From the NCBI GenBank assembly GCA_029007295.1, contig JAQXHN010000033.1:1-64000 (forward strand): DNA of 64,000 bases, read 5' to 3'. The notes below the pieces were generated by a model. It did no database searches. It was not told where the DNA came from and saw nothing but the letters and a program-made list of their open reading frames with translations. Within the stretch, counting starts at the first letter, position 1, and each line of letters opens with the position of its first letter. The translations under genes were made by a program, and so were the position numbers. This document shows, piece after piece, positions 5,641-48,841 of this stretch. This DNA is from Clostridia bacterium. Its GTDB lineage: Bacteria; Bacillota; Clostridia; Oscillospirales; CAG-272.

Positions 5641-5658
5641 TGTATATCTCCTAAAAAA

Positions 5659-7460: not shown

Positions 7461-7590
7461 AGCTGTACTCCAATAAAATAATTATGGTTATTGTATAATA
7501 ATATAACCGTTTTGTCAATAGCTTTTCATTATTTTACCAATGTAAATCAGCAAAGTTGGTTAAATTTTTGACATTCTTTTGATAAAATTA

Positions 7591-7640
7591 AAGCGTCCTT
7601 TGAAAATTAATCTCCTTTTTAACAATTTCAAAAGACGCTT
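7591..7640 (-). terminator. Terminator-like inverted repeat after recR
   Basis: AAGCGTCTTTTGAAATT...AATTTTCAAAGGACGCTT on the minus strand, followed by TAATTTT. Confidence 0.6.
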
Positions 7641-7656
7641 CAAAAACGATTTTAAA

Positions 7657-8259
7657 TTATTGTATTTCCGTTCTGCCGTCGATTGCGCGATATAAGGTTA
7701 CCTCATCAGCGTGATCAAGCTCTCCTCCGACGGGAATACCGTATGCAAGACGAGTGGTTTTAACTCCGAGAGGCTTTAAAAGCTTTGCTAAATACATAGC
7801 TGTTGTCTCTCCCTCAACAGTCGGATTGGTTGCTATGATAGCCTCCTTAACCCCTTCTGCTTCAATCCTGCAAAGAAGCTCTCTGATTCTCAGCTTCTCC
7901 GGTCCGACACCGTCCATCGGGGAAATGACGCCGCCCAATACATGGTACGTGCCTGTGTACTCTTTTACCCTTTCGAGAGAAATAACCGCTCTTGCGTCTT
8001 CAACAATGCACATTACGGTTTTATCTCTTTCCGGATTTGAACAGACATTACAAATATCACCCTCGCAAAAATTAAAACAATTCTTACAAAATCCGATTTT
8101 TTCTTTTGCATTTATTACAGCGGCGGCAAAGGCCTTTGCGTCATCGTCACTCATAGAAAGTATTGAAAACGCCATTCTCATGGCGGATTTTTTTCCTACG
8201 CCGCCGAGTCTGCGAAACGCCTCTATCAGCTCCTCAAGAGGTGGAATAAGCCCGTCCAT
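7657..8259 (-). CDS. recR: Recombination protein RecR
   Basis: LGGVGKKSAMRMAFSIL, CKNCFNFCEGDICNVCSNPERD zinc finger, Toprim YHVLGGVISPMDGVGPEKLRI. Confidence 0.97.
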   Translation of the reverse strand: MDGLIPPLEELIEAFRRLGGVGKKSAMRMAFSILSMSDDDAKAFAAAVINAKEKIGFCKNCFNFCEGDICNVCSNPERDKTVMCIVEDARAVISLERVKEYTGTYHVLGGVISPMDGVGPEKLRIRELLCRIEAEGVKEAIIATNPTVEGETTAMYLAKLLKPLGVKTTRLAYGIPVGGELDHADEVTLYRAIDGRTEIQ

Positions 8260-29816: not shown

Positions 29817-31364
29817 TCATTTAATGTTAGATAATTTTTTTATAACAACGGCCGCCTGAGCCCTTGTGGTTGCGGCAGTCGGTGAAATAAAGTGCTCGGA
29901 CGTGCCCGATATCAGTCCTATCGACAACGCCCAGCTCATTGCGTCTCGCGCCCATGTATGGGTCGTCCAATAGTCCCAATAATAGCTTACATCTGCTCTT
30001 TGCAAGGTTGAAATTTTCTTATATTGGCAGTATTTGTATGCAAACAGCACAAATTGCTCTCTTGTTAAATACTTATTCGGCGCAAAACCGTTTTCCGTAC
30101 CGGAGGTTATTCCGTTTTTGTATGCCCATTCAACGCTTTTTGCATAATAGCTTCCGATGTTTACATCCCAAAAATGCGATTTGTTTCCAAAGGAGGATAG
30201 ATCATCTCCGGATAATTTCGAAAGGACAGTCACAGCCATAGCTCTTGTAAGCTTTGCATCCGGCGAAAAAGTAACCGTGCTTGTGCCTGTCATTAAATTA
30301 TTATTGAAACAGAAATATATCGGCTCGTAGTACCATTTTCCGTACATAACATCTCCGAACCTGTCGCCCGTAAACAAAGCCTCAATATAAGTGTCCCCGT
30401 AAACAGTATACGAAAAAGTTTGCTGTGTGGAAACAAGCTTATTATTGATGTACCAACCTATAAACGAATTACCGGAATCGGGATATGCGGTTACGGATAC
30501 GATAGAACCTATTCTGCATACCGCCGAATCATTAAGCCAGCCTGCAAATTTATAGCCGTAATTATTCTTGTTAAAATGCTCTATTCTTGCACTCATCTGC
30601 ACACTTTTTGCACTTACGGCGCTTGTTTTTACGGTACCGTTGTAATTTTGTCTTACTCCGACATAAGCAAAAGCATTTTTTGTTTGCGAAACAGGAACAG
30701 TAGCTGCGTCATATGCAGCGCAACGGGACTCGTTTTTAACATAGGTTGAAGCAAAGGCCTCCCTTGGAACACAGTAATAACTGTGCTTGTTGACGCCTCT
30801 TTTTTGAGTTACGTTATGCTCAACCTGAGGATCGAAAATATAATATTTTCCGTTTATAAGTATTTCTACCCACACATGGTCATAAACGGTTGACGAGGTA
30901 TACATTTTTCCCGTTCTGATATAAGCGTCAAGTCCTATTGCGCGCATAGCAATCATAAACGCGCTCGAAAAATTGTCGCAAACCCCTGTTTTTTCAACAA
31001 AAGGACAGTATCCGAAATATAATACATAAAACGGAATGGGAATTTCATTTCTTGAATTATAATCATATGTAGGATAATACGAACCGAGCTTATAGGACAT
31101 ATTATTTACAAACCAATCATATATGCTTTGAACCAAATCCGAGGTGGTAGCGCATTTGCCCTTAAATGATGACAAGAAATTTTCAACGGTTTTGTCCATC
31201 AGCATGAATCCGGTTTTCTGCGGATATAATTTAACGTTATTGAGTATATCGGCTGACTGTGCGAAATAATCGGTTTTTGCACTAACCGTAAACGAAGGTA
31301 TACAACCGAGCGATGTAAAAACAATCAGTATAATACTAATTATCCTGATGATATTTTTTTTCAT
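29817..31364 (-). CDS. Secreted transglutaminase-like protein with bacterial repeat and C-terminal SLH domains
   Basis: Signal peptide; GVCDNFSSAFMIAMRAIGLDAYIRTG, YDHVWVEILINGKYYIFDP (Cys/His/Asp triad order); three SLH-like units such as LTRAMAVTVLSKLSG. Confidence 0.88.
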   Translation of the reverse strand: MKKNIIRIISIILIVFTSLGCIPSFTVSAKTDYFAQSADILNNVKLYPQKTGFMLMDKTVENFLSSFKGKCATTSDLVQSIYDWFVNNMSYKLGSYYPTYDYNSRNEIPIPFYVLYFGYCPFVEKTGVCDNFSSAFMIAMRAIGLDAYIRTGKMYTSSTVYDHVWVEILINGKYYIFDPQVEHNVTQKRGVNKHSYYCVPREAFASTYVKNESRCAAYDAATVPVSQTKNAFAYVGVRQNYNGTVKTSAVSAKSVQMSARIEHFNKNNYGYKFAGWLNDSAVCRIGSIVSVTAYPDSGNSFIGWYINNKLVSTQQTFSYTVYGDTYIEALFTGDRFGDVMYGKWYYEPIYFCFNNNLMTGTSTVTFSPDAKLTRAMAVTVLSKLSGDDLSSFGNKSHFWDVNIGSYYAKSVEWAYKNGITSGTENGFAPNKYLTREQFVLFAYKYCQYKKISTLQRADVSYYWDYWTTHTWARDAMSWALSIGLISGTSEHFISPTAATTRAQAAVVIKKLSNIK

Positions 31365-31476: not shown

Positions 31477-32061
31477 TTATGAAGTCGGGTCATACCCGAA
31501 AAATTCAGTTGCTCTGTCATATTGGACGGTTTCTGCCTGGGCAACAACAGACAGTTTTACAGAGTCATCTATGCTGTTATCAACGGAAATTGAACCGATA
31601 AAGCTGAGCTGTTTATTTTGATTTAATGCGCTTGTATAATAATAGTATCCGTCTTCATGCTCTACCCAGCCGTCGGAAAGCGTAAAATTAATGTCAGGAG
31701 CTTCGATAACCGTTCCTTCCGAATCGGTTGCGGATATAAACATTTTGACTCTCAGGCATGCTTTTGAGGTTTCCTTGTTCTCTAATGTAGAAAACTGAAC
31801 GTACAAAGGCGCAAGTGAGACTAATTGATTTTTAGAATACGTATTCGCAGAATCGAACGAAGTATTATCTCTTGTTTTTACTTCAGCCTTAAAATCCGAA
31901 ACCATCACATTGGTTTTTACATAATTAGAAGACTTAAACCATGACAGCACTCCTACCGTGCCGACCAAAACCGTTGCAAGTATTGCAACGCATAATAAGC
32001 AAATAAGAATAATATAATTTTTTCTTTTTTTATTCCACAAAGTTGTTTTTTTCTTGCTCAT
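31477..32061 (-). CDS. Small membrane/secreted protein with TM-'SWF' leader motif
   Basis: NYIILICLLCVAILATVLVGTVGVLSWFKSSNYVKTNVMVSDFKAEV; beta-rich remainder. Confidence 0.75.
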   Translation of the reverse strand: MSKKKTTLWNKKRKNYIILICLLCVAILATVLVGTVGVLSWFKSSNYVKTNVMVSDFKAEVKTRDNTSFDSANTYSKNQLVSLAPLYVQFSTLENKETSKACLRVKMFISATDSEGTVIEAPDINFTLSDGWVEHEDGYYYYTSALNQNKQLSFIGSISVDNSIDDSVKLSVVAQAETVQYDRATEFFGYDPTS

Positions 32062-32101: not shown

Positions 32102-32746
32102 TTAACTTATATCTTCGGAGAAGGAAAAGCTTGCTTCAATACTTCCGTAGTCTAAGCTTCTTGTTCCCTGGCTTCCCGTTTCACCGAAAAAATAATAACC
32201 GTCTGTATCCTCCGAAGCTGCGTCAATGTATTCTCCAAAGTAAATAATATAAAATTCGGCTTTATAATTATTGTTCTGTTCTGATTCGGAATTAGGCTTC
32301 AACGGGATGTAATATATGCTCCTATCCCTTTTGCTGTCCGTAGCTTTATTTAATTCCGATATCCATTCGCTCTGTTCTATGCTGTCCGTAACCAAATAGT
32401 GCAACAAGCTGTTGTTTGCAGAAATTTCCACTTTAATATAACCGTTTGCAGGGTAATTTACCGTGAATTTGTCAGAACATATATTTTTACTGTCGACAGA
32501 GCCTATTTTTGCCGCTGAAGGAAGAAAAATTTCTTTTTCACTCTCTCCCTCATATTCAACGTCAATATCCTTATACTCTAATGAAACTCTTATACCGTTA
32601 GCTGTAGCCTTGTTTTCTGTTTTAAACCACGCCAAAACCGAAATAACAAGTATAATAAGCGAAGCAAGAAGCAAACACAATGACTTTATAAAACCTAAAA
32701 AAGTTTTCTTTTCCGACATTTGCCGATAAATACTTTTGTTTTTCAT
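32102..32746 (-). CDS. Small membrane/secreted protein with TM-'AWF' leader motif
   Basis: SLCLLLASLIILVISVLAWFKTENKATANGIRVSLEYKDIDVEY. Confidence 0.75.
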   Translation of the reverse strand: MKNKSIYRQMSEKKTFLGFIKSLCLLLASLIILVISVLAWFKTENKATANGIRVSLEYKDIDVEYEGESEKEIFLPSAAKIGSVDSKNICSDKFTVNYPANGYIKVEISANNSLLHYLVTDSIEQSEWISELNKATDSKRDRSIYYIPLKPNSESEQNNNYKAEFYIIYFGEYIDAASEDTDGYYFFGETGSQGTRSLDYGSIEASFSFSEDIS

Positions 32747-32780: not shown

Positions 32781-35726
32781 TCAGTTATTTGTGTTACTGT
32801 AATATATACCCCAAGGTCTTGCATTTTCCGAAACGGAAATCTTAACATATATCTCGTCTGCGTCGTTAAAGGTAAATTTATTATTATAATCTACGACAGA
32901 TACGGGAGCTCTGCCGACGGCATAATTTTCGGCGGTCACAACGAACGGAGCGTATAATATATCGTTATATATCATATCTGAAAACGTTATTTCACCGTTA
33001 TTACCGTTAATCAAAAACGAACCGAAGGATTCGCCCTTTTTACTCAGAGATAAAATAGCGTTACATGCGTCATTTACCAAAACCAATGCGTTACCGGACA
33101 TATCCGTGTCAAGCTGCTTCGGGGTATCGAAAATATAATTTACCCTGACGTTTTTGCTGTTAAACAGCAGAATGCGTTCATTGTCGGAAGAATCAGACAA
33201 TTTACACAAGCATACGCCGTTTGAATTACGTATAAATGCTCCGTCATAATAGGAATACATATCATTTACAGCCTCACCTGCAAAATTATATGCGCCAATA
33301 TATGTTAACCCGGAAAAGGTCGCATTTATAAATGTTCTCGACGTCGAATCCTGTGCATATATAACGGGTTTTATAAATACGGAGTAAGCCGTAGGATAAA
33401 TGCTGTAAAGGGACGAAATACACGGATAATTATCCGGAACGGCACTCCAGCCTGAACCGAGTAAATTGTTTGAAATCAGCTCAGAGGTTTTCTTGGAAAC
33501 GGTCGAAACAGGCAATTTTCCTACGCTTTGACCGTCATAATAAGACAATGAAATCAATCCCGAGCCGCATGTTATACCGTTTTTCAATCCGTTAATTGAT
33601 TGATTATAGAGCATACCGCAGAAAAGCGAGCTTGAAACCGCTCCGTTTCCGGTTCCGATTATTCCCGCCATATCAACCTTAAGTGATTCTTCTTCAATAC
33701 TTTTATACGTATCGTTGGCTATAACGGCGCTTGAATAACAGTCGGTAAAATCACAATTTGAATAACCGGCAATACCGCCCATTGCGCCCGAACAATTCGA
33801 AGAATAACAAAGTCCGTTCGAAACAAGCTTATTAATCGAAAACCCTTGTTTTTCAATCTTACCGAAAATCATACCTGCATATTCTTCGCCGTTAAGCACT
33901 GTTCCGGATACCATAATATTATTGATCTCAGCAGTGACTACAGATGACGAAATAAAACCTATAAGAGCTCCGCTGTTCCTTGCGTTGCCGGTAAGGCTTA
34001 TATTCTTTAAATATATATTTTTTACTTCGGCATTAGCATTGTCTGCTATATTCGAAATAAAGCCTGCGCTTTCGGTAAGCGGAGCGTTTGTAATAATTTT
34101 CATACCCGAAACAGTCTTATTGTTTCCGTCAAATATTCCAGAAAACTCAGACATAGGAATAAACGCTTCGTCTTCATTTGTATATGAGATATCGCTGTTT
34201 AATGTAAAAATGCAATCGGCTGCCTGACAGTACACCCTTAATGCCTCAAGCTCTTGCTTTGTAGATATTACCGCATCATAGAAATTATTCGAAGAATCGT
34301 AAGATACGGTTGAAATATAAGGATTATTATCCCCGATATGAACGAAAATTTCTCTAGTTAGTGAGCCGTATTGACAGACAAATACTATATCGCCTGATGT
34401 AGAAAAAACATACTCGCCTGTTACGGCATCATAGTACGAGCCGGTTAGCTTTACATCATCAGAGTAAATTAAATCAGAATAGCTTTGGTCCGGATCGAAA
34501 TAATATTCATCCGTACCTCCCGTAATTCTCCATGTCACCAAGCTTTTTGATAAATACGCTACGCTGTACTCCGTTTCGCTTGAAACCGGATAAAATTCTC
34601 TGCCTGTTGCTACGGATAACGACAGGTCATTGACCTGACCTAGGTTAACCTGTGCACAGGATAATATCGACAATTCATCCATCGAAGAGGTTTTCATTCG
34701 TCTGATAGCTGAAATTTGCGGATAAAATCCGTTGCCGCAGTCAGAAAAATTCCATAAAGCCCTGTCGGAATTTGATTCGGGAATATCAATGTCGGTATTG
34801 TCGAACATTGCCGTATAATCGGCAGACTTCGGGTCAAATCCGTGAGTATCGTTAAGATAGCTTTCCTGTCTTTGAAGAGAGACGGTTTTGTCATAATATA
34901 CATTATCACCGAGATTTGAAGGCTCAAGGAAGGCACCTATGGATTTCACAGAGCCGGTAAAAGCGTTTGTAATACAAAGAGATGTATATCCGTTTGTATA
35001 CGACGCATTTTTGCTGAAGCCTACAAGTCCGCCTATATAGTGATATCTATGTGTATTTTTAATATAACCTGAGGAATAAGAGCCTGTTACTGAGCCGTTA
35101 CCATGATATCCTACAAGCCCGCCTATATATGAGACCGTAGTATTATTTATATTATATTTTACGTCGGATTCCGTAATATTTTCATAAATATCGCATAAAG
35201 ACGCCGATTTTTTGATATTCAGAACGGCGTCATCGTTGCATTTACCTACTAAGCCTCCGACATAACATTTTTTATTTCCGTCAACCGAGATAACCGAATC
35301 TGCTATGGAGGATACAATGGTTACGTTTGCTCCCGGCTTAACCTCTCCGATATACGCACCGAATGCTTCCCCGTTTTCAACATCAGGATCTATTACCGTC
35401 ATATTGTAAAGAGCAAGAGAGGTTACCGTACACGTACCGCTGCAGCTCTTTAATAATCCGTTTGTAGTCTTCATGTTTTTGATTGCATAGCCGTTTCCGA
35501 TAATGCTGATGTCAGTTACGTCCTTTGAGCTTATAACTCCCATATCCGACATATCTATATCGGAAGTTAATTCAAAATTCTGACAGTTTTCTATTGCGGT
35601 TTTTAATTCGGTGGCATTGCTAACCTGAACCTCTCCCAAAGCATAAGATTGAGGAAGTAAAGCGGCAAAAGAAGACATGATAATAATTAACGACAAAATA
35701 ATACTGTTCAGCTTCCGTAATTTCAT
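32781..35726 (-). CDS. 981-aa secreted protein with GLUG-like beta-helix repeats
   Basis: Signal peptide MKLRKLNSIILSLIIIMSSFAALLPQSYA; repeats YVGGLVGKCND, YIGGLVGYHGNGSVTGSYSSGYI, YIGGLVGFSKNASYTNGYTS, GGIAGYSNCDFTDCYSSAVI. Confidence 0.8.
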   Translation of the reverse strand: MKLRKLNSIILSLIIIMSSFAALLPQSYALGEVQVSNATELKTAIENCQNFELTSDIDMSDMGVISSKDVTDISIIGNGYAIKNMKTTNGLLKSCSGTCTVTSLALYNMTVIDPDVENGEAFGAYIGEVKPGANVTIVSSIADSVISVDGNKKCYVGGLVGKCNDDAVLNIKKSASLCDIYENITESDVKYNINNTTVSYIGGLVGYHGNGSVTGSYSSGYIKNTHRYHYIGGLVGFSKNASYTNGYTSLCITNAFTGSVKSIGAFLEPSNLGDNVYYDKTVSLQRQESYLNDTHGFDPKSADYTAMFDNTDIDIPESNSDRALWNFSDCGNGFYPQISAIRRMKTSSMDELSILSCAQVNLGQVNDLSLSVATGREFYPVSSETEYSVAYLSKSLVTWRITGGTDEYYFDPDQSYSDLIYSDDVKLTGSYYDAVTGEYVFSTSGDIVFVCQYGSLTREIFVHIGDNNPYISTVSYDSSNNFYDAVISTKQELEALRVYCQAADCIFTLNSDISYTNEDEAFIPMSEFSGIFDGNNKTVSGMKIITNAPLTESAGFISNIADNANAEVKNIYLKNISLTGNARNSGALIGFISSSVVTAEINNIMVSGTVLNGEEYAGMIFGKIEKQGFSINKLVSNGLCYSSNCSGAMGGIAGYSNCDFTDCYSSAVIANDTYKSIEEESLKVDMAGIIGTGNGAVSSSLFCGMLYNQSINGLKNGITCGSGLISLSYYDGQSVGKLPVSTVSKKTSELISNNLLGSGWSAVPDNYPCISSLYSIYPTAYSVFIKPVIYAQDSTSRTFINATFSGLTYIGAYNFAGEAVNDMYSYYDGAFIRNSNGVCLCKLSDSSDNERILLFNSKNVRVNYIFDTPKQLDTDMSGNALVLVNDACNAILSLSKKGESFGSFLINGNNGEITFSDMIYNDILYAPFVVTAENYAVGRAPVSVVDYNNKFTFNDADEIYVKISVSENARPWGIYYSNTNN

Positions 35727-35747: not shown

Positions 35748-36317
35748 TTATTTGTCGCCACCGTCAGCTTTATCCTTGCGGTAGGGACGATAAATTGATA
35801 TCACAAATTCAATAAAATATATAATTACAATTATAAAAAGCGGAAAAACGGTAAGGAAAAAGGAAACTTTTTTATCAGACAAAAAGCCTAAAATTTTTCC
35901 CATTTTTACCGATGAAAAAACAACCTTGCCTATTACATTCTTTTCATCGACTTTATATTTATCAACACTGACATGTGCGTCGCCGATTGTTGTAAATATT
36001 TTTCTCTTTCCGTCGTTTTCGATTGCATAAATTCGGTGAGTATTAACTTTACCGTATATATCGGGATCGGATGATCTAAATGATATTATATCACCTACTT
36101 TTAATTCATCCGCCTCGGTAGTATGTATTATAATTACAGTACCCGCTTTCAGCGTCGGCTCCATACTTCCCGTTGTAATTCTGTAAAGCCTGTAGCCGAA
36201 AAGCGAGACGCCGTCGTCCGATCTTATAATAAGAGTAAATAACAGAAACGAAAGCGATAAAATAACAAGTATTACCGAGATTACGGTAAAAAACTTTGAT
36301 TTCTTGTTTTTTTTCAT
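35748..36317 (-). CDS. Signal peptidase I, SipW/ER type (Ser-His)
   Basis: YRITTGSMEPTLKAGTVIII, VNTHRIYAI (His rather than Lys), C-terminal TM. Confidence 0.88.
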   Translation of the reverse strand: MKKNKKSKFFTVISVILVILSLSFLLFTLIIRSDDGVSLFGYRLYRITTGSMEPTLKAGTVIIIHTTEADELKVGDIISFRSSDPDIYGKVNTHRIYAIENDGKRKIFTTIGDAHVSVDKYKVDEKNVIGKVVFSSVKMGKILGFLSDKKVSFFLTVFPLFIIVIIYFIEFVISIYRPYRKDKADGGDK

Positions 36318-36322: not shown

Positions 36323-38125
36323 TTATTTATTATCGTCCGCTTTCAATATACTTTCCGGAATCATCTGAATAAAATCCGTTTTTAAATCGTCCGATTGACC
36401 ACCGATTACCGGAGCACCGGATTCGGAAATATCAGCATTTTCCCTTGTGTTATTTTGCTTTGACTTTGCACTGTCCTTCTTTAGAGCAATTTTATTCTTC
36501 TCTTTTTCTTTTTGAGCTTTTGCTTTAGCCTTTTCTTTTTCCTTAAGGGCCAGCGCCTTAGCCTTCTCTTTTTCCTTTAATGCCAAAGCCTTTGCTTTTT
36601 CTTTTTCCCTTAACGCCTTTTCTTTCGCTTTAGCTTTTTCTCTTTCCTTTTGAGCTCTTTCCTTTGCCTTAGCTTTTTCTTTCTCTTTAATGGCTAATTC
36701 TCTGAGCTTTGCCTTTTCCTTTTCCTTTTTCGCTTTTTCTTTTGCTTTCTCAAGCTCCTTTGCTTTCCTTGCGGCTGCTTTTTCTTTCTCCCTTTGAGCC
36801 AGAAGCTTTTGTCTTTCCTTCTCCTTCTCGATTGCTCTTTGTTTCTGAAGCTTTTCTCTTTCTTCCTTACGCTTCCTTGCCGCTTCTTCCCTTTCAATTC
36901 TCAAGCGTTCTTTTTGCTTTTCCTTCTCTATGCGTTTCTTTTCAATCTCAGCAAGGCGCGCTTCTTCTTCCCGACGGGCCTTTTCAATCGCAAGACGTTC
37001 CGCTTTATCCGCTTCAAGAGCATTTTTAATAGCTTCTTCAACGACAGAATCGTCTTTTTCACGTTTTTTCGCAGCTCTCGTAATTTCGTCGAGAAATACC
37101 TTTCTAACCTCCGTTTCGGTTACGTTATAATCTTCAACGATTTCTTCAATAATATTCTTAATAAACTTGGGTTTAATCTGTCTTTGCTTTCTATGAGTAT
37201 CGTATTCTTCATCGGAATCTGCATTTTTCTTTAAACACATATAATTTAAAGCTAACGTATTATAAAGTGCAAATACACTCTGTTCGTCAAGCTGCTTATA
37301 TTCATTAATCGAATCAATAGAATAGCCGATTTCATTGTATGTTTCAATGAACTGCCAAAGCATAAGACACTTTTTGAAATTCGGATCCTTTAGAATTACG
37401 TTGGTTCTCATAATCGGAGGACGAACCGGAACGCTTCCTTTCATACTCTTTGCAAAAGGCGAAAGCATAAATCCCTTTAAAATTCTGTCAAGACGGTCAA
37501 TACGGGCAAAAGCATTCATATGCTTAGTATCCGTTTCAAGCATGGATTGCGTTTGGTGAGCGCTTATCTCTACCTTATACGAAACGTTTTCATCTGTATT
37601 AACAAAATTGCCCTCCATACCGAGCTCTGCAATTTCCTCATCCTCGGTAACGGCAAAAAGAACGTTTCTCCTCGTCTCGACAAACTCTAAAACCCTTTTA
37701 AGCAATGTATATATAAAGCGGTTCTCATAAATATCAAAGCTCTCTTCACGGTATACGTTTAAAATCTCATTCGGAGTAACATTTCCTTTAGGGTCAACCT
37801 TGGCGATGAGATTGGTATGCTGTGCAAGATGACGTACAGATTCGTTTGTTATGCGACGCGCTTTCTCGATCGGTACAATCTCATCCTCCTGAACTATAAA
37901 TCTTCGGGGGTTTCGTATTATCGAGTCAAGCTCAACTATACAGTCTTCGATTTGAGTTATCCATCTGTCATCAATTTTTTTATCCCTTTTCTTATGATAA
38001 AAGGATATTTTCTTTCTGCCGGCGCCGATATTTGCAATAACAAAATTATAGAAATCGTCGCTCTCAACCAAGTCAACAAATTTATTATAATATTCCCGAT
38101 AGACTTTTTCAACTTGCTGTGACAC
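36323..38125 (-). CDS. 600-aa protein: 'ENRF' (DUF2357/McrC-like) N-terminal region plus long charged coiled coil
   Basis: VYREESFDIYENRFIYTLLKRVLEFVETR, then about 220 aa rich in K/E/A/R (KEKEKAKALALKEKEKAKA). Confidence 0.65.
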   Translation of the reverse strand: MSQQVEKVYREYYNKFVDLVESDDFYNFVIANIGAGRKKISFYHKKRDKKIDDRWITQIEDCIVELDSIIRNPRRFIVQEDEIVPIEKARRITNESVRHLAQHTNLIAKVDPKGNVTPNEILNVYREESFDIYENRFIYTLLKRVLEFVETRRNVLFAVTEDEEIAELGMEGNFVNTDENVSYKVEISAHQTQSMLETDTKHMNAFARIDRLDRILKGFMLSPFAKSMKGSVPVRPPIMRTNVILKDPNFKKCLMLWQFIETYNEIGYSIDSINEYKQLDEQSVFALYNTLALNYMCLKKNADSDEEYDTHRKQRQIKPKFIKNIIEEIVEDYNVTETEVRKVFLDEITRAAKKREKDDSVVEEAIKNALEADKAERLAIEKARREEEARLAEIEKKRIEKEKQKERLRIEREEAARKRKEEREKLQKQRAIEKEKERQKLLAQREKEKAAARKAKELEKAKEKAKKEKEKAKLRELAIKEKEKAKAKERAQKEREKAKAKEKALREKEKAKALALKEKEKAKALALKEKEKAKAKAQKEKEKNKIALKKDSAKSKQNNTRENADISESGAPVIGGQSDDLKTDFIQMIPESILKADDNK

Positions 38126-38162
38126 GATACTTTACTCCATACATAATTTTGAATTTAATTTA

Positions 38163-39746
38163 TCAGAAAAGCTTCTTTAATCTAAGCAGATATTCCTTGG
38201 AGGTCTGCATATTTTGCTTGCCGAACATCTTATCCATATATGTAATAAGACCGTCGATTTCATCGCGAATAAATGAAAGATTTAGGCTCTCGAATTTGCG
38301 GAATACCTTTTGTGCAAGCACGTAATCAAGACCGTCTATTTCGGTTCCGCCGCAACCAACATAAGCCGGAACAAAATCCTTTAGCTGTTTAACAATACGG
38401 TTGCCGAAAGCGAGACGGAAATGTTCAATAACATAATCGTCCAGCTCTGAAATTTTATCAAGGTTCTCTTTTGAAACTTTATATTTTTGTTTAGCGTCGT
38501 CAAACATAGCTTCCAAATGTTTGTACGACAATGCAAGATGTCCGGTATACGGAGCGTCAAAATATTTACCCTTAGTATTTATGTCTATAGGCATTGCACG
38601 GTCATAAACCTTATCCGTAATGGCAAATGTAGAGTCGTCGTTGTTTGCCGTTCCGATATACCACATATTTTCAGGCAATTTCATTCTTCCTTCTACTACC
38701 ATTCTGGGGTCTGACGGCCATGCGGACGGAACGAGGTCTACAACCCACTCGTCTCTCGTCGGCATTTCAAGAATAGACAGCAACTCGGCAAAATAGTATT
38801 CTACTCGAGCTATATTCATCTCGTCAAGTATAGTAACGTATATGTTGTCGGTATACTTTGCTTCGTACATTTTCTTTAATACTTCGGTTTCGTTAAATCT
38901 CTTGGTAAATTCATTAAAATAACCGAAAAGCTCGGTGCGGTCTCTCCACGAAGGCTGAACCGACGCTATTGTTGCGTCATTCTGCAAAAATTTACCGAAT
39001 GCATATGGCAACGATGTTTTACCTGTACCTGATATACCCTGTAATATAAGGAGTCTTGTAGATGCAAACGACGCAATAAAAAGTCTAATAATTTTTTCGT
39101 CGTAGAAAAGCCCCATTCTTGAACATGCAAAATTGCGGAACATGTCGCATATTTCGGGAAGTGTAATATCGTTATTGTACACGGGAGCTACATAGTCGGC
39201 ATAGGATATGTCAACCATTTTCAGCTTATAAAATCTTCCTATCTCGTCATCAGTCAAAGGCTTGGGAGTATCAACCGAATCAGCTTCTTCCGTTTGATTT
39301 TCATCGGTAGAAGCATTCTCGGCAGCGTCTCCTACAGTTAAGTTTTCGTCATAACTGTCAGGGGCAAGACCCAGCTGAGAAACCTTCATTGCAAGTATTT
39401 TATCTTTTTCTTTTGTAATCTTTATTATCTCTCTGTTGAGACGTCCGACCTCTTCAAGCACTTCTTCCTTTGAAACAAGGGACTCGCGGAATCTTATATA
39501 CTTTCTGATCAAAAGATAGATAAGGAAAAGAATAGACGCAATAAGGGCGAGCATTACAAGAGCGATAAAAACGGAAAGCACCCATTCCAGCACGCCGAAA
39601 TCCTTGCTGTATTCACCGAATACCTTTATATATTTCGGAAAATTAAATATTTGGACTATACCGTTAAAAATTCCGGTAATAATTTTCCATAGTCCTCCTA
39701 AGAATACAAGAATAAAATCTTTAGAAAATTTTGCGAGGTTCTCCAT
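38163..39746 (-). CDS. Membrane-anchored McrB-like AAA+ ATPase
   Basis: N-terminal TM VLSVFIALVMLALIASILFLIYLLI; Walker A GISGTGKTSL; Walker B VTILDEMN followed by IARVEYYFAELLSILE; IGTANNDDSTFAITDKVYDRA. Confidence 0.88.
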   Translation of the reverse strand: MENLAKFSKDFILVFLGGLWKIITGIFNGIVQIFNFPKYIKVFGEYSKDFGVLEWVLSVFIALVMLALIASILFLIYLLIRKYIRFRESLVSKEEVLEEVGRLNREIIKITKEKDKILAMKVSQLGLAPDSYDENLTVGDAAENASTDENQTEEADSVDTPKPLTDDEIGRFYKLKMVDISYADYVAPVYNNDITLPEICDMFRNFACSRMGLFYDEKIIRLFIASFASTRLLILQGISGTGKTSLPYAFGKFLQNDATIASVQPSWRDRTELFGYFNEFTKRFNETEVLKKMYEAKYTDNIYVTILDEMNIARVEYYFAELLSILEMPTRDEWVVDLVPSAWPSDPRMVVEGRMKLPENMWYIGTANNDDSTFAITDKVYDRAMPIDINTKGKYFDAPYTGHLALSYKHLEAMFDDAKQKYKVSKENLDKISELDDYVIEHFRLAFGNRIVKQLKDFVPAYVGCGGTEIDGLDYVLAQKVFRKFESLNLSFIRDEIDGLITYMDKMFGKQNMQTSKEYLLRLKKLF

Positions 39747-39797: not shown

Positions 39798-40553
39798 TTA
39801 TTCTTTCCCGTCGTTTATTTCTTGTGAAGCCGCATTATTTTCAGTCTCGGATTTCTGCTTTAAAAGATACTCTTCAATAGCCTTTTGCTTTTGGGCTTCC
39901 GTTAAATTATCTCCGTTTGTAATATTTTTGGAATATTTATATTCAACCAAAGCTTTAACAAACTTAAATAATGCGTAAAAGAAGAACAGAGCAAGCGGTA
40001 TTACAAGTAAAAACAGAATTCCGTTGGAAGAAATTATAAAATCAATTACCTTTCCGCCGCCTTTAATCAGTATACCGTCGTCTTTGCCCTCGCGTGAATA
40101 ACGAGCAATAATTTTATCATAAGCTAACGTCTGCTCGTCCGGACCCGGATTGTCATCGCCTTTTGTAGTTATAATCATTGAAGAACCCTTGCCTTCAATG
40201 TCTGTAATACGGTGAACGATTATATCCGGACTTCCGTCCTTATTAACATCTTCTCCCCAAAAAGCTATAATATCGCCCTTTGAAAGGTTATCTTCTTTAA
40301 CATCGGTTTTACAAAGGATTAAATCGCCTCGGTAAAATAACGGCTCCATAGAAGGTGACTTAATGGAATTTACAGTATAACCGAATACCGTAGGAACTCC
40401 GTTTTTTGAAGTTGACAATGACATCAGAACGACGCAAACGGAAAACAGCAGATATACAACTAAAATTATATCTATGACAATTGATATTACCCGTTTCCAA
40501 ACAGGCTTTTTTACTGCGTTTGATTTTTCATTATCTTTCATTGTTAACCTCAA
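39798..40553 (-). CDS. Second signal peptidase I, SipW/ER type (Ser-His)
   Basis: VNSIKSPSMEPLFYRGDLILCK, DIIVHRITDIEG, two TM segments. Confidence 0.88.
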   Translation of the reverse strand: MRLTMKDNEKSNAVKKPVWKRVISIVIDIILVVYLLFSVCVVLMSLSTSKNGVPTVFGYTVNSIKSPSMEPLFYRGDLILCKTDVKEDNLSKGDIIAFWGEDVNKDGSPDIIVHRITDIEGKGSSMIITTKGDDNPGPDEQTLAYDKIIARYSREGKDDGILIKGGGKVIDFIISSNGILFLLVIPLALFFFYALFKFVKALVEYKYSKNITNGDNLTEAQKQKAIEEYLLKQKSETENNAASQEINDGKE

Positions 40554-40644: not shown

Positions 40645-41331
40645 TTATTCAGCTACAAAATTTACGGAAATCGAACCGGATTTAATAGCTGCCGCACCCT
40701 TTGTAAAGATGTTGTCGGCGTTGCCGTCGTAGTAAACATAGATAGTTGCCTTAATAGCTTCAGTAGAAGTTACGGTAGAAGCAAGGGTCTTTGTACCGTT
40801 TCCGGAAGCAGAAAATTCTTCATAATCGTTTGCTGTAGCAATAATTACTCTGACAGCGGTATCGGTGTCTGCGCCGAATGTTACATTAGCCTTAAGGTTA
40901 GAGAGATCGGCAGTATCTTCGGTATTAGTGATATATACATCGCCGACTGCAACATAATTTGCAAAACCGGAAAGTGGGGCCTTTGTTCCGGAGTCCATTG
41001 CGGAAGCAGAAGCGTCTGAAGCCTTGGCCGTATACCAATTTGTTGCGAGAGCAACAGCGGAAGAATTTGCAAAGGTCTCATGAGCGGCAGGAGACAAAGC
41101 GCTTTCATTAATTGCCATATCTACTGTAGTTAAGCCCTGAGCCTGAATTTCCGATGCTGTTGTTTTATCTTTAGAGATAAGCAAATAACCGTCGCCGGCA
41201 TTGATATCAACTGAAATTCCGGTAGCCGTAACGGTATTATTGGTTGTAAACCATGCGTAAGAAGCTGTAGCAAGACAAATAATAGCTACAAGAAGAAGAA
41301 TGGTGGATGTGAATAATGCCTTTCTTTTCAT
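40645..41331 (-). CDS. Candidate major secreted subunit with TM-'SYAWF' leader
   Basis: MKRKALFTSTILLLVAIICLATASYAWFTTNNTVTATGISVDINAGDG; mature part rich in Ala/Thr/Ser with few Arg/Lys. Confidence 0.78.
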   Translation of the reverse strand: MKRKALFTSTILLLVAIICLATASYAWFTTNNTVTATGISVDINAGDGYLLISKDKTTASEIQAQGLTTVDMAINESALSPAAHETFANSSAVALATNWYTAKASDASASAMDSGTKAPLSGFANYVAVGDVYITNTEDTADLSNLKANVTFGADTDTAVRVIIATANDYEEFSASGNGTKTLASTVTSTEAIKATIYVYYDGNADNIFTKGAAAIKSGSISVNFVAE

Positions 41332-41499: not shown

Positions 41500-42294
41500 T
41501 CAGCTATCCTGTATTGCGGTCATATCGACCGACAACGTCATTTTACCGCTGAGAATATCGTTTACACACTGAGGGTCGTTTCCTTCAACCCAGATTACAA
41601 AGGTAAATTTATCAACACCGTTTTTCTTTATCGGAACGGTTTCCTCTGTATATACGTCATCGGACAGAAATTCTATCATATTTTCTTCTCCCGGCGTATC
41701 GTTTACAGGAGCTTTTTTAAAAATTTTCTTTTCACCGTTTCTGATTAACATTATGCGGATTGCTTCATCAATATCCAGCTCCTTTGAAATTAAGCAAACC
41801 TTGTAATTGTATTCTATATCTTTTTCGGATTCATTGATTAAGTAATAGCTGTAAGCAAGATAGCTGGGATTGTCTTTGTCGCCCAAACCCACCGAAGAAT
41901 TATCCCCACCGACGGAAATCTCGTCAATGTTTTCCGGAATCCAACTATACGTACAGTGCCATAAGTCTTTAACGCTGGTGCCGTCAAGCTTTATCGTTCG
42001 GTTTGATAAATCACTGTTTTCGGATAAGGACAATAAATTTCTGGAACCTTTATCTACTATAACGGTAAATGACCCGTTTTCTTCACCGGTCCCGCCTATA
42101 ATGACTATGAAAACGCAGTAAAGCAAAAGAGTAAATACAAGCAGACTCAGCGCAACGGTTGATGTCAATTTAATTAAGCTCTGCATTCGCGCAACCTGCC
42201 GTCCGGTACGTTTCACTGCAAATTTTCTTTCTTGCTTAAAAAAGTCACTGCGTGAATTATCCGTCGGATTTGGCTCATTCATAATGCATTTCAC
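41500..42294 (-). CDS. Membrane-anchored TasA/CalY-like protein
   Basis: Single TM, then ELDIDEAIRIMLIRNGEKKIFKKAP ... FTFVIWVEGNDPQCVNDILSGKMTLSVDM, resembling the C-terminus of SipW-dependent proteins. Confidence 0.7.
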   Translation of the reverse strand: MKCIMNEPNPTDNSRSDFFKQERKFAVKRTGRQVARMQSLIKLTSTVALSLLVFTLLLYCVFIVIIGGTGEENGSFTVIVDKGSRNLLSLSENSDLSNRTIKLDGTSVKDLWHCTYSWIPENIDEISVGGDNSSVGLGDKDNPSYLAYSYYLINESEKDIEYNYKVCLISKELDIDEAIRIMLIRNGEKKIFKKAPVNDTPGEENMIEFLSDDVYTEETVPIKKNGVDKFTFVIWVEGNDPQCVNDILSGKMTLSVDMTAIQDS

Positions 42295-42333: not shown

Positions 42334-43143
42334 TCAAATTGCTATATCTTCTCTTTCATTTTTCGAAAAGTATTCACCCTCAATTAAAAAGCATCTCATT
42401 CGCTTCATAATCTCAAGCTGCTCCTTTGTATCTATGCCGTCTGCGATAATAAGAATATCAAGCTTATCGCACAGCTCGATAATACTTTCCGTAATACCTA
42501 CAATCTTGCTGTCGTGTGAAATTCCTTCGGCGAAGGAAGCGTCAAGCTTAAGATAATCAACATCAATTACCGATAAGCTCAGCAGTGACGATGATTCTGC
42601 TCCAAAGTTTATTACGGCGATTTTAACTCCGTTTTCACGAAGCAATCTAAGATTTTCTTTTACGCCTGCATTCGCGGCCTGAAGCTCTGCTTCACTGATT
42701 TGAATGCAAAATACATTCGGAGAAATCCCGTTTTTTTCAACGATTTTACTAAATTCTTCGAAAAATTTCGATTTTCCCAAAAATTTAGGAGAAAGAGTAA
42801 CAAAAATACGGTTAACCGTCTTTCCCTGCAATTTCTTACGATTAATCATTTCGCATGCTTCGAGTATTTGCCATTTGCCGAGCTTTACCGCTAACTCGGA
42901 TTTGGACACGACTTTGGATATCCTGTTATAGGGGAGCGTCCCGAGCTTTGGATCGTTTATTTGCAGCGACGCCTCGTATCCGAGTACAACGTTTTCGCTC
43001 GTATCGTAGATTTGTCTGTACAAAAACTCAATAGGGCGAAGCGTTTCCCTTTTGTTTTTGCGGGGTCTGCCTCTTTTTTTCGGTATCTGAACTACAGTAT
43101 CAGCCATTTTATTTCTCTTTTCATCAAATAAGTTTTCAGTCAA
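42334..43143 (-). CDS. Degenerate EAL-domain protein with N-terminal AT-hook
   Basis: PKKRGRPRKNKR (AT-hook); VLGYEASLQI, VAVINFGAESSSLLSLSVIDVDYLKLD, LIIADGIDTKEQLE align with EAL, DDFGTG, K and AEGVE motifs but with substitutions. Confidence 0.8.
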   Translation of the reverse strand: MTENLFDEKRNKMADTVVQIPKKRGRPRKNKRETLRPIEFLYRQIYDTSENVVLGYEASLQINDPKLGTLPYNRISKVVSKSELAVKLGKWQILEACEMINRKKLQGKTVNRIFVTLSPKFLGKSKFFEEFSKIVEKNGISPNVFCIQISEAELQAANAGVKENLRLLRENGVKIAVINFGAESSSLLSLSVIDVDYLKLDASFAEGISHDSKIVGITESIIELCDKLDILIIADGIDTKEQLEIMKRMRCFLIEGEYFSKNEREDIAI

Positions 43144-46100
43144 TATCCACTCTTGAACCGTATAACATATAGCTCCGGTTATCTTTTACGTAATATATAT
43201 ACGGAATAACGGAGTAGGAATAATCCGACTTAAGAATAACCCTAAAATTAGAAGTTAAATTTGTTTCCGAAGAGACTATTTTATAATACTTGTAAACCGA
43301 ATTTCCGTCTGTATTCAAATAATCATTAACGGTATTAGCGCTTAAATCCGTATCAATTCCCTTGGAAACAATTACTCCGGTCTCAATAACAATTGAATTA
43401 TCGGGAACAAACCACGAAGATGTCGCATACTTTCGTCCGTTAACAGAACCAAAATCGGAAATTGAAATTCTTGCATCTTGAGATCCTGTTCTCTCGGCGC
43501 GAATTTCGGCATTTCCAAGAACTCTGTAATTGAATATCGGGCTCGTGCTTACGGTTTCCCCGTTAACTACCCAGCGTTTAAAAGTCGCAGGATCTGCTTT
43601 AAGCGTCAAAACGGAATCATATTTACAATTATAAGTTCCGCTGTTGATCGCACCCGTAACAGATACTGTGTAATTTTCCGTTCCGAAGCCGTAAATTTGC
43701 AGCTTTGTATCGGATATTCCGTTATATGCGTAGAGCAAGCTCCTGTTTAAAGCGCCTTTGTCATACAAGGTGTGCCCGTTTACGGGGGTGGGTAAAATTT
43801 TGTTATTTCTGTCTGTCAATATTTCTCCGGACTGATCCGAAATATTGTAAACAGCGCTCATAGCCTTATTGTCAACAAAGAATACCGACGCAGTCATTTT
43901 CCTGTCGGAGGAATTCAAATTCGGATTCTTGTAAACAATTCTGTCGGGACAGGCGATATCTGTTTCACCGAAGACGCACTTATACTGAGAATAGTACGGA
44001 ATATCGTTGGTTAAATATACGGGATTATAATTGTCCTTTGAATAAAGCTCCAAAGAAACAACGGTATTATCCTTTACATACAGCCAGTTATCCTTTGAGG
44101 TTATGTCGTATTTTACACTTTTACCCGAAACATCGGTATAAACAATTTTACCTAAATTACTACCGGACGCGGACGCAAACAAGCTGTTGTTCTTTGATTT
44201 AAGTCCGAGATAAAAATTACAGTCCTCCCAATATGCCGTAAGCGTAATCGGTCTGTAGTTAAATTCCTCAAGTGCGTCGGACATTTTTATTACTTCGTCT
44301 TTCAATCCCTGATTTATACCGTCCGTGCGGAATTTGTATCCGTGTACAAGAGAGCTTTTACCGTTTAAGGTATAATCTGCCATCATATAAATCTTTTCCT
44401 GCACACCGTTATCAAGCTTTCCGTTATTGTTAACATCGTAAGCTTCATTTACGGAATAATACACAGGATTGCCCGAATCGTCAAAGTGACCGTCCCATTC
44501 TCCGTCGCAGTCATAATCAATAAACCAACCTGTGAGAGCCTGGTTCTTATAAGACCATCCGAGATCGCGAACATTGCCGGTATTCAAAAGAGAAAATGCA
44601 TAATTGCTTACAATGCCGTCATTGATATATTCGAACGCATAATTATTCTTGTCGCCGTTTACAGCGGCTTTTCCCGCATAATATCTTACGCCTACGTCCC
44701 AGGATTGATAAATATCGAAGGGGCTCTGACCGTTAGAGGTTGCAGCTGCTGCGTCTACAAATATTTCACTTGCACCCATTTCATATATCGGATTATAATT
44801 CAAGCCACCCTGACTGCTGTTATAAATAATATTATAACAGCCTCTGCACCATGAGTAAGTGCCGAGCTTATATTCGTATAACGGATTAACCCTTGATATA
44901 GGATGCCATACATAAGAAAGTCTGTATTTCCACGAATTACTTGTTTCAAAAGTGTTGGAATTTAACTCGCTTTGATTATACTGAGTATATGAATCTCCTT
45001 TTATGTAGAAAGATCTATCCGCTGTATCACTTCTCGCAGTTACTTTTGGATGCGTATCAATATCTACGGGAACAGAAACATCATACATATTATATTTGTA
45101 CATCATGTTTCTGACAACACTCTCGCTGTACTTTAATTTAAGCTCCTCTTCAATGGCATTTAATGTATCGTTGTATTCATCCGAATAAACAGAATCCTTG
45201 AACACCAACGCCCCCGAATCGTCCCAAATACCGTCAAGACCGTGGCCAAAGCTTTCAACATAGGAGCCGATACTTCTTTCTTTAACCGTATATTCAGAGC
45301 TGCTCAAGCTTATATATTTGTAATTATTTGTCTTGTCAAAATATCCGATTTTTTGCACGGAAGAAGTGTCAAAAGCATTATCAATGTATGCATTGCCCAT
45401 AGGGTCTGTCGCTATTTCGGGAAAAACATAATAGTCATGATAGTACATTTGCATACAGTTTCCCAAGCTGTATTCATCCGAAGCAACTGCATATGAATAA
45501 ACGGTAGATGTATATGTTTCTCCTTCGTTTGAAACTATTCCCCTTCCGTCGCTGAAGCCGTTTGAAGAAAATGTAGCGTTATTACCTATCTTACCGTTAT
45601 GATTGTTTGCATGATACCTGATTTGCGCCGTTTTCAGCGTCTTTCCCGTCTCCGAAGCCCAATAATTAGCAGTTAAGACAACATCACAGCTGTAATTAAA
45701 CGTATACCCGCAGGTAGAAGCATTTAACGGGTTGATAGATGTTGAATAAGGATGAATAAATAAATCATAGAATACCTTATCCAATTCTTTATATTTTGCA
45801 GGACCGTTTATTATTTCCTCATTTGTGCTGGTATATACTTCAGCATATGTTGTGGCGAAACTCTCATTTGAAATAACCTTAACCAGAGGATTCTGCCAGC
45901 ATCTCAAATAAGTTAACCCGTTAACTGCAGACGGAAATTTATTAAAAGCGCTCTTATATGTCTCCCCGGTTTTTATAACCAAAACCTGATATCCTGAATA
46001 TGCGGTATCAGACGTCCATTCTTCCGATAAGGTTTGGCCGTATTCGGTTACAACTCCTTCTCCGTCACCTTTTCGTCCCTCGGTAACCGAATCGTAAGTA

Positions 46101-48841
46101 TAATATCCAAGACCCTTTTCTGCGTTCCACGAGCCGATATCTGAACCGGAAGAATATCCGCTGTTTATTCCGTAAATCGGGTAATTTGAATAAACGGAAA
46201 GGCAAAAATTATTTACGTCTGCATTCAAAAGGACCTCATAGCAGCCGTTAACGGTATAGTCGCCGTAATTTGCAACGAATACAGTGTTATCCTCAAATAT
46301 TTTTACTGCACTGTATTTGGAATCTCCGTACTTAAATGCAAAACTCCAGTCATCAGGAGCGTCAGACGGATGCTCTCGATACCCCCAACCGACAAAGCGC
46401 GATTCGCTTACCGAACCCTTTTCACAGGGATTAAAATCAGGATGCACTACCGCATAATCGTAGGTCGGCTTAAAAAATACAGAGCACTGAAGTAGCGTAT
46501 ATTGCTGAGATCTGTTGGTGTATTTGTAGTTAAGCTTACGCATTATTTCTTTGTGACAGCCAATGCAGTAGCTTGAATCATATTGGGTGGTTCCGTTGTT
46601 TTTTGAAGTACCGCCATCATAAAACTGCTCTGAAAAGACAGCGTTATGCTGAGTCTTGGTATCACCGTAATTTGAATACCAGTCATCGTGAGCGCAGTAT
46701 CTTGCTTCAAGCGTAACATCTGAGTTCAGCAGGAACGAGTCGCATTTCGACCATGTTTTTGTATGATTGTTGTATAAGAAAACACAAGTATCGCTTCCCT
46801 GTGCAAACCAACCTATAAATCCGCAATCTATACCGTTTTCCGTAACATATGACGGGACTTGAGCCATACCGTACGGCGAAGACGACGGCAAAGGAATTTC
46901 CGTCAGCTGACCGGGAACAGTAACGCTTATGGTTTTATCGCCGTTGTCAAAAACACCTTCCTTAGCATTATAGGTAACTGTATAATCGGAGTTAGACCAA
47001 TGAGCATACAGTGTAGCGCTATCAACATCTTTATCCCAAGAACGCATACTGTTCAAGCTTGAATCGTAGTACATGGTGCCGCCGTCGATCGAGTCAAAAT
47101 ATCCTACAAATATATAATTATCATCTCTTGTAGGCTTTGTATAATCCGATAATGACGGCATACTCGAATCAAAAACTGCAATTTTTGTTCCCGTTACACC
47201 GCCGTTTCCGCCGTTCTGATTAAAGCTGAGTGTCGTTTTATTTGCGGCCCATTCAGCGGTAATTGTTAAATCATTGGCCGGCATGGTGCTTGGCACGCTC
47301 GGAGTCCACGATGAAAAAGAATAACCTAATCTTGTGGGGCTCGGTATTACGATTACGGTACCGAAGGGCACTAATCCGTCAGTATATGAGCCTTCAGCGA
47401 TACCGCCGTTAAAATTCCATGTTAAAGTATACTCGTGCGGTTTCCAAATCGCATATAACGTCACGGTTGCATTATCAACGGCAGACAGATTACTAACGCT
47501 TTCGCCGTCCCGGTACTTTACTGTTTGTCCGTCGGTTGACCATCCCAAAAAATCATAACCTGTTTTTAAAAAAGCATTTGCCGTCAGCTGTGTGCTTTTT
47601 CCGTAAGTAAAGGACTGATCGGCCATAGTTCCGCTGTCCGCACCGTTTCCGTCAAAATGAACATTATAAGTATTTCCCTTCCATTCAGCCGTAATTTCGG
47701 AATTTCCGATTATTTGATACGGCAACGAAGATATATTCTTTCCGAGATTGGTTTCTCCCAAGAGCCAACCGTTAAAAGAATAACCCGTTCTTGAAACGAT
47801 AGGCGGATTTAAAAAATCTCCGTAATTTAAAAGCTGTACATTACTTCCGGAATCTATAGTACCGCCGTTAACATTATAAGTCACCGTAAAAGGATTATTG
47901 AAGAAATTTATCGCATTATATTCGGTACCGCCATAGTTAATAGTTTTTAAAGTAAACGAACCTCTGCAGTCGTTTCCGGGCTGTGTCATTCCTATCGCAG
48001 GATACAGCGAAGCAGAGGACATTCCGACATCCGAAGATGTAAACCATGTGCTGTATGGCTTGTTAAAGTCGCCAAACTGAGTATATTCCAAATGGGGATA
48101 ATCGGTATAGGTTATTGTCCATGAAGTAGCTGAAATTACTGTATCACCGATAACGGCTCGGCAATTTGAGTCGAATCCCAATTTACAAACCGACTCTCCT
48201 TGAGGAATCATTGAAACGGGATTAGATGAAAAATCACAACTGTAAACAAAAATTCTGTACTCGCCGCCGACAATCAATTTCATTTGCAAAGAAGCAAAGA
48301 TTACCTTTTTTGAAGAATTTAAAATACAGCACAACGAAAAACCGGTGGTGCTTCCGAAGGTATCCCACCCACCGAAAAGTGAATAATATCCTTCTCCGCC
48401 GTTCCAATATGCCGCCCCGTTGTTTCCAACGCTGTAGTGAGGCTGATACTCCATCGGAGTACTCTTAAAAGCTATATTTACAGTATCGTATTCAGAAATA
48501 TTATTTATGTCATAACGGAAAAATGTATTTTTAAAATTTACGGCGCTTTGCAAGGAAAGACCGGCGTTTGAATAAATATTATTTCCCGTTACTTCAGCTT
48601 GGTCAGCAACATAAATCGAACCCGGTGTTTTATTTACATCAACACCTGTAAGTCCGTGGTTACCGTAAATCTTCCAGTTTGAATTCCAATTGTTGGAGGT
48701 AATTACACTACCGCTGGTATATCCGTTAATTACAGCATTAATTTTAATTGATGAATCGAAAATAAGCATATAAAAAACCAGCATTACTGACAACATTAAT
48801 GCTGTTATTCTTCTTATTTTATTTCCGATTAATTTTTTCAT
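43136..48841 (-). CDS. 1901-aa secreted surface protein with Flg_new/InlB-B-type repeats
   Basis: Signal peptide; about five repeats: TVTYNVNGGTIDSG...GYSFNGW, YNVHFDGNGADSGTM...GYDFLGW, YTLTWNFNGGIAEGSY...GYSFSSW, etc. Confidence 0.85.
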   Translation of the reverse strand: MKKLIGNKIRRITALMLSVMLVFYMLIFDSSIKINAVINGYTSGSVITSNNWNSNWKIYGNHGLTGVDVNKTPGSIYVADQAEVTGNNIYSNAGLSLQSAVNFKNTFFRYDINNISEYDTVNIAFKSTPMEYQPHYSVGNNGAAYWNGGEGYYSLFGGWDTFGSTTGFSLCCILNSSKKVIFASLQMKLIVGGEYRIFVYSCDFSSNPVSMIPQGESVCKLGFDSNCRAVIGDTVISATSWTITYTDYPHLEYTQFGDFNKPYSTWFTSSDVGMSSASLYPAIGMTQPGNDCRGSFTLKTINYGGTEYNAINFFNNPFTVTYNVNGGTIDSGSNVQLLNYGDFLNPPIVSRTGYSFNGWLLGETNLGKNISSLPYQIIGNSEITAEWKGNTYNVHFDGNGADSGTMADQSFTYGKSTQLTANAFLKTGYDFLGWSTDGQTVKYRDGESVSNLSAVDNATVTLYAIWKPHEYTLTWNFNGGIAEGSYTDGLVPFGTVIVIPSPTRLGYSFSSWTPSVPSTMPANDLTITAEWAANKTTLSFNQNGGNGGVTGTKIAVFDSSMPSLSDYTKPTRDDNYIFVGYFDSIDGGTMYYDSSLNSMRSWDKDVDSATLYAHWSNSDYTVTYNAKEGVFDNGDKTISVTVPGQLTEIPLPSSSPYGMAQVPSYVTENGIDCGFIGWFAQGSDTCVFLYNNHTKTWSKCDSFLLNSDVTLEARYCAHDDWYSNYGDTKTQHNAVFSEQFYDGGTSKNNGTTQYDSSYCIGCHKEIMRKLNYKYTNRSQQYTLLQCSVFFKPTYDYAVVHPDFNPCEKGSVSESRFVGWGYREHPSDAPDDWSFAFKYGDSKYSAVKIFEDNTVFVANYGDYTVNGCYEVLLNADVNNFCLSVYSNYPIYGINSGYSSGSDIGSWNAEKGLGYYTYDSVTEGRKGDGEGVVTEYGQTLSEEWTSDTAYSGYQVLVIKTGETYKSAFNKFPSAVNGLTYLRCWQNPLVKVISNESFATTYAEVYTSTNEEIINGPAKYKELDKVFYDLFIHPYSTSINPLNASTCGYTFNYSCDVVLTANYWASETGKTLKTAQIRYHANNHNGKIGNNATFSSNGFSDGRGIVSNEGETYTSTVYSYAVASDEYSLGNCMQMYYHDYYVFPEIATDPMGNAYIDNAFDTSSVQKIGYFDKTNNYKYISLSSSEYTVKERSIGSYVESFGHGLDGIWDDSGALVFKDSVYSDEYNDTLNAIEEELKLKYSESVVRNMMYKYNMYDVSVPVDIDTHPKVTARSDTADRSFYIKGDSYTQYNQSELNSNTFETSNSWKYRLSYVWHPISRVNPLYEYKLGTYSWCRGCYNIIYNSSQGGLNYNPIYEMGASEIFVDAAAATSNGQSPFDIYQSWDVGVRYYAGKAAVNGDKNNYAFEYINDGIVSNYAFSLLNTGNVRDLGWSYKNQALTGWFIDYDCDGEWDGHFDDSGNPVYYSVNEAYDVNNNGKLDNGVQEKIYMMADYTLNGKSSLVHGYKFRTDGINQGLKDEVIKMSDALEEFNYRPITLTAYWEDCNFYLGLKSKNNSLFASASGSNLGKIVYTDVSGKSVKYDITSKDNWLYVKDNTVVSLELYSKDNYNPVYLTNDIPYYSQYKCVFGETDIACPDRIVYKNPNLNSSDRKMTASVFFVDNKAMSAVYNISDQSGEILTDRNNKILPTPVNGHTLYDKGALNRSLLYAYNGISDTKLQIYGFGTENYTVSVTGAINSGTYNCKYDSVLTLKADPATFKRWVVNGETVSTSPIFNYRVLGNAEIRAERTGSQDARISISDFGSVNGRKYATSSWFVPDNSIVIETGVIVSKGIDTDLSANTVNDYLNTDGNSVYKYYKIVSSETNLTSNFRVILKSDYSYSVIPYIYYVKDNRSYMLYGSRVDID

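Follow-up and report, generated by a model that had tools for sequence, protein, structure and literature searches.

An McrB-type AAA+ protein and its DUF2357 neighbour, encoded together in a Clostridia genome, probably constitute a CoCoPALM-type GTPase machine that derives from McrBC, lacks a nuclease, is tethered to the membrane and, in place of restricting DNA, works for a surface-protein pathway of the SipW/TasA type. The genomic association of the pair with SipW secretion is strong, although such a link does not establish a mechanism, and the evidence that the pair has given up DNA restriction is good but short of proof. An initial annotation had proposed that the pair is repurposed and is not a plain type IV restriction system, and this proposal is supported by the missing nuclease, the missing recognition domain and the secretion setting, which together speak against plain restriction.

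Architecture of the locus

The locus lies in a window of 64,000 nt, the whole stretch of DNA that was analysed, as a single-direction run of genes with short gaps from position 48841 down to 31477. The run starts with an InlB-repeat adhesin and continues with an EAL-fold protein, an anchored beta-sandwich protein, a TasA-like protein, a SipW-type peptidase and the AAA protein, followed by the DUF2357 partner, a second SipW-type peptidase, a GLUG protein and two further exported proteins (Table 1). The AAA/DUF2357 pair sits between the two SipW/archaeal-type signal peptidases, and both of its reading frames occupy the positions given in the initial annotation. No nuclease was found among the scanned genes of this locus, and the scanned genes farther out in the window are housekeeping or surface genes.

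Table 1. Features of the locus; coordinates are positions in the 64,000-nt window, with the strand given as (-).
Feature	Position	Strand	Basis or remark
McrB-type AAA+ protein, 527 aa, membrane-anchored, predicted NxD GTPase	38163..39746	(-)	best informative match McrB
TM helix of AAA protein, aa 58-76	39519..39575	(-)	basic stretch IRKYIRFR follows
Walker A of AAA protein, GISGTGKTS, aa 237-245, invariant	39012..39038	(-)	alignment of relatives
NxD(D) signature of AAA protein, NNDDST, aa 368-373	38628..38645	(-)	aligns with NMDETT of non-membrane McrB relatives
DUF2357 (McrC scaffold/finger-type) partner, 600 aa, GTG start, without nuclease	36323..38125	(-)	PF09823
Conserved DUF2357 part of partner, aa 1-345	37091..38125	(-)	AlphaFold2 model, best PDB match McrC of McrBC
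YENRF motif of DUF2357 partner, aa 133-137	37715..37729	(-)	alignments
Variable K/E/A-rich charged helical tail of partner, aa 346-600	36326..37090	(-)	composition, periodicity, alignment
SipW-type signal peptidase, S26B, Ser68/His114 kept	39798..40553	(-)	just upstream of AAA gene
Second SipW/archaeal-type signal peptidase, Ser51/His94 kept	35748..36317	(-)	5 bp downstream of DUF2357 gene
TasA-like exported protein, signal ...SYAWFTTNN...	40645..41331	(-)	signal sequence; TIGR04088 no match
Membrane-anchored beta-sandwich protein, WxEGxDxxC, possible fibre base	41500..42294	(-)	conserved beside SipW
EAL-fold protein with catalytic residues lost	42334..43143	(-)	DDFG to INFG, catalytic N to T, EGVE to DGID
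1901-aa exported adhesin-like protein, InlB B-repeats	43136..48841	(-)	domain matches
981-aa exported protein, GLUG motif and weak pectate-lyase-like adhesive match	32781..35726	(-)	domain matches
Exported protein, SipW-substrate-like signal SVLAWFKTEN	32102..32746	(-)	signal sequence
Exported protein, SipW-substrate-like signal GVLSWFKSSN	31477..32061	(-)	signal sequence

An McrB-type ATPase with an N-terminal membrane anchor

McrB is the best informative match of the AAA protein (NCBIfam E 1e-7; PDB McrB chains E 1e-6), and all of the McrB-type motifs that the initial annotation had quoted are present. Its N-terminus, which yielded no Pfam domain above cut-off and no DNA-recognition domain, consists of a hydrophobic segment followed by the TM helix that had been proposed (residues 58-76, mean hydropathy 2.98); the basic stretch after this helix predicts a cytoplasmic location for the AAA domain. 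Heptads resembling a coiled coil, judged by eye only, follow at residues 95-120. We compared the protein with named relatives, the best 80 of at least 562 from a scan of named genomes, a sample that leans to close relatives; all 78 that are full-length carry an N-terminal TM segment and Walker A, 77 of 78 carry NNDDST and 76 of 78 the Walker B pattern. Across 21 aligned AAA proteins there is little or no variation in Walker A, Walker B and TANNDDST, and none in NNDD. Distant McrB relatives in the phylum that are not membrane proteins lack the TM helix, and most show GTVNMDETT at the position of NNDDST, an alignment from which the signature here reads as NxD followed by D. NxD followed by D or E is the variant of the CoCoNuT/CoCoPALM branch (PMC11090510).

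The partner is a DUF2357 protein without a nuclease

The neighbouring protein had been linked to DUF2357/McrC through its YENRF signature, an assignment borne out by a match to DUF2357 (PF09823, E 4e-11, above the curated cut-off); YEN is invariant in alignments of 20 and of 35 relatives. We modelled residues 1-345 with AlphaFold2 (pLDDT 79.8) and obtained scaffold-like strands and finger-like helices, for which the best matches by probability among 350,542 PDB chains were the McrC chains 6hz4_M (probability 0.82, E 0.025) and 6ut6_G (probability 0.85, E 0.24), both with weak E-values. A PDB sequence search with the DUF2357 profile gave no real match. The conserved part also aligned by hhalign (probability 96.6, E 7e-10) with the DUF2357 partner of another locus, L077, in which a PDDEXK_7 match remains, narrowly short of the cut-off of that model.

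A PD-(D/E)xK nuclease, reported missing by the initial annotation, which had named the detection of an intact one as evidence against its proposal, was not found when searched for. Pfam detected DUF2357 in 11 of 20 partners and a PDDEXK nuclease domain in none of the 20, and for the partner in the window neither PDDEXK_7 nor an McrC nuclease model gave a match, even with the limit relaxed to E<=1. Residue 298 is the last of the scaffold in Thermococcus McrC and residue 299 the first of its nuclease (Niu et al. 2020, PMC7680126). In the partner, a PD-(D/E)xK domain would need to start after residue 277, and the AlphaFold2 model (residues 1-345) shows no beta-strand there. A nuclease inside the first 345 residues is thereby rejected, the model holding scaffold and finger only, and so is one hidden in the tail, which is low-complexity K/E/A sequence and nearly missing in Bacilli. 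The Bacilli-type partners (9 of 76 named relatives) measure 362-381 aa, extend about 17-36 aa past the conserved domain and are thus DUF2357 and little else. McrC stimulates hydrolysis through an Arg or Lys (PMC7680126), and the invariant basic residues of the partner alignment, R208 and K246, are candidates for such a role.

The C-terminal ~220 aa of the partner had been described as a coiled coil. The long helical tail stands, as a K/E/A-rich charged helix with 12.6% strong hydrophobics, but the coiled coil is doubtful: there is no peak at the heptad period of 3.5 residues, and the tail is not conserved, varying freely among relatives, being long in most members and nearly absent in the Bacilli homologues. 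From its composition and periodicity, a charged single helix is at least as likely as a coiled coil.

The membrane-anchored pair is associated with SipW

An S26 signal peptidase lies within 6 kb in 78 of the 80 named loci (again the best 80 of at least 562), and the two without one, L105 and L122, are truncated by the ends of their contigs. The arrangement spans Oscillospiraceae, Ruminococcus, Christensenellaceae and Bacilli, and occurs in named isolates including Ruminococcus albus KH2T6 and Ruminococcus sp. FC2018. By the rule of the scan, DUF2357 is downstream of the AAA gene in 74 of 76 loci with room for it; in the two that the rule missed, it is present after an intervening SipW gene. 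In Bacilli loci a 344-351-aa protein is encoded directly before the AAA gene (L155:8967-10001, L144:8943-9998), in the place that SipW has elsewhere.

Strong AAA and strong SipW matches coincide in the same 11 of 59 related genomes (Fisher p 4e-12). The limit for a strong SipW match (E<1e-20) was chosen after the values were known, and falls in a wide gap between the weakest best match among the 11 genomes (2.6e-21) and the strongest elsewhere (4.2e-15). Non-membrane McrB relatives, found in 43 of 399 phylum genomes, show no co-occurrence link with SipW in that sample (2/43 vs 50/355, p 0.1); the SipW link is specific to the membrane clade. SipW-like enzymes also occur without the AAA/DUF2357 pair, in 52 phylum-sample genomes besides this one, and because SipW so often lacks the pair, we regard the pair as an addition to a subset of SipW pathways that meets no general need of SipW.

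This distribution bears on the idea that the pair is a chaperone-type AAA+ unit, with MoxR/NorQ-like action, that would take care of the folding, insertion or loading of a membrane partner, for example SipW or the anchored beta-sandwich protein, and would not drive export or assembly. We consider this unlikely: related AAA+ proteins with partners do insert cofactors or remodel targets (NorQD), and the operon with two membrane peptidases is tight, but SipW enzymes exist elsewhere without the pair, the partner is of McrC type and not VWA type, and no metalloenzyme was recognised in the locus.

Among 119 neighbour proteins scanned, the commonest families were EAL (8) and S26 (6), and no nuclease, HEPN, methyltransferase or defence family recurred. 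Homologues sitting mainly in defence islands had been named as evidence that would speak against repurposing; secretion genes surround them instead, and on the neighbour scans together with the scanned window flanks a defence island is rejected as the setting. A membrane-located defence system, in which the pair would detect infection at the envelope and work by way of some unrecognised effector, the surface genes being passengers, would accord with the type IV restriction ancestry, with the prediction that the CoCoNuT relatives are defence systems (PMC11090510) and with a match of the AAA protein to the PADLOC candidate-defence model PDC-M26A (E 4e-35, best over the AAA region). The likeness to PDC-M26 is confined to this A component, whereas the partner matches no PADLOC model and the setting is one of secretion. 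Given also the absence of recurrent nuclease, HEPN or methyltransferase families, a partner that can be scarcely more than DUF2357, a SipW gene order conserved over many families and PADLOC matches among the 119 neighbours that are isolated single cross-matches, we give such a defence role a low probability.

We also observed a second membrane variant, in which one DUF2357 gene lies between two TM-anchored McrB-type AAA paralogues (L059:8179-12679; L074:1-3754; L075:2533-6666; L076:7218-11351). No SipW was seen in the stretches examined; large exported transglutaminase-core proteins lie close by in L059 and L075/L076. They have an echo in the window, where a transglutaminase-core protein that also contains SLH and InlB-repeat domains is encoded a short way downstream of the block (29817-31364). 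In L059 a 1121-aa protein (4791-8156) combines glycosyl hydrolase family 3 C-terminal and Fn3-like domains, a TM segment and a degenerate AAA-like domain without Walker A.

Signal peptidases and exported neighbours

The Ser and His residues are conserved in 98-100% and 97-100%, respectively, of the members of the two signal-peptidase groups. The SigPepSipWBacil model matched at E 3e-31, below the model's cut-off, and the SipW-cognate signal model TIGR04088 had no match in this genome. Three exported neighbours have an A/S-W-F signal junction. SipW cleaves a TasA signal that has Phe at P2', a signal on which ordinary signal peptidase I acts poorly (PMC10269814), so these junctions fit SipW processing. 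The anchored beta-sandwich protein weakly matches archaeal bundling pili (E 3e-3, TM 0.43), and a PDB sequence search with its profile returned no real match.

In many loci the anchored beta-sandwich protein is accompanied by a conserved, degenerate EAL-fold protein, whose loss of DDFG, the catalytic Asn and the EGVE glutamates makes phosphodiesterase activity improbable. Several related loci also encode a separate GGDEF-EAL protein that looks intact. The retention of the degenerate protein, and the length of the charged tail in most members, would suit a regulator or sensor of envelope state, in which GTP turnover would be relayed by the tail and the EAL-fold protein so as to control the surface operon. 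The Bacilli nearly lack the tail, and their loci that we inspected have no EAL gene, yet AAA and DUF2357 remain there, and we therefore judge this reading improbable, more so than the chaperone and defence readings.

Discussion

CoCoPALM is a clade named in one paragraph and linked to pilus assembly by Bell et al. (2024, eLife 13:RP94800, PMC11090510), who promised a separate paper on it; our literature search found no functional study beyond the naming. As described, its GTPase carries an FtsB-like combination of N-terminal TM segment and coiled coil, and its McrC homologue usually a coiled coil. The AAA/DUF2357 pair, with an NxD McrB-type GTPase that has an N-terminal TM segment, a DUF2357 partner in the operon and signal-peptidase genes, matches this description in the NxD motif, the membrane tether and the signal-peptidase link, and on these sequence features we assign it to CoCoPALM. 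To the description of the clade we add the SipW/S26B type of the enzymes, of which two often flank the pair, the TasA-like and adhesin cargo, the absence of a nuclease, the dispensable tail, the conserved degenerate EAL protein and the co-occurrence numbers.

The pair shares the McrB-type AAA+ protein and the DUF2357 scaffold/finger fold with the McrBC of E. coli and Thermococcus, but differs in having a membrane anchor and NxD in place of NxxD and in lacking both a PD-(D/E)xK nuclease and an N-terminal DNA-binding domain. It resembles CoCoNuTs in the NxD branch and in charged or coiled additions. CoCoNuTs without the McrC nuclease always encode another nuclease nearby (PMC11090510), whereas no HEPN or other nuclease was found in the neighbourhood here, and the AAA protein has no long coiled coil. 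Like tapA-sipW-tasA of Bacillus subtilis, the locus places a SipW-type peptidase beside TasA-like exported proteins; the B. subtilis operon has no McrB/DUF2357 pair, and the cargo at this locus is larger and includes adhesins.

Our best reading is that the pair is a GTP-driven membrane machine that assists or gates the export and assembly of SipW-processed surface proteins, a mechanism of which we infer every step beyond the anatomy. The AAA ring, a hexamer, would assemble at the cytoplasmic face of the membrane, and the DUF2357 finger would enter it and, in the manner of McrC in McrBC, stimulate the hydrolysis of GTP at one site after another. Ring movements, relayed by the membrane anchor, may then control the SipW-dependent processing or the assembly of TasA-like subunits and adhesins outside; with the ring held in the membrane next to SipW, they could act as a gate for cleavage or pass subunits on to assembly. 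Counting against this reading are the PDC-M26A match, the occurrence of SipW without the pair, the null result with TIGR04088, the weakness of the bundling-pili match and the related membrane variant (L059, L074-L076) without SipW nearby.

TasA-type fibres are thought to form extracellularly by donor-strand exchange, and the pathway is not known to have an energy-using cytoplasmic component. We tentatively suggest, as a possibility that we hold with less confidence than the service to the surface pathway as such, that a restriction McrBC has become a membrane motor, driven by GTP, which powers or gates the assembly of extracellular TasA-like fibres. The named isolates R. albus KH2T6 and Ruminococcus sp. 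FC2018 carry the locus, making direct testing possible. If the suggestion is true, many gut and rumen bacteria would have, in a cytoplasmic GTPase ring, a further source of energy or a gate for fibre assembly, and the ring would show how a defence machine can acquire a surface function.
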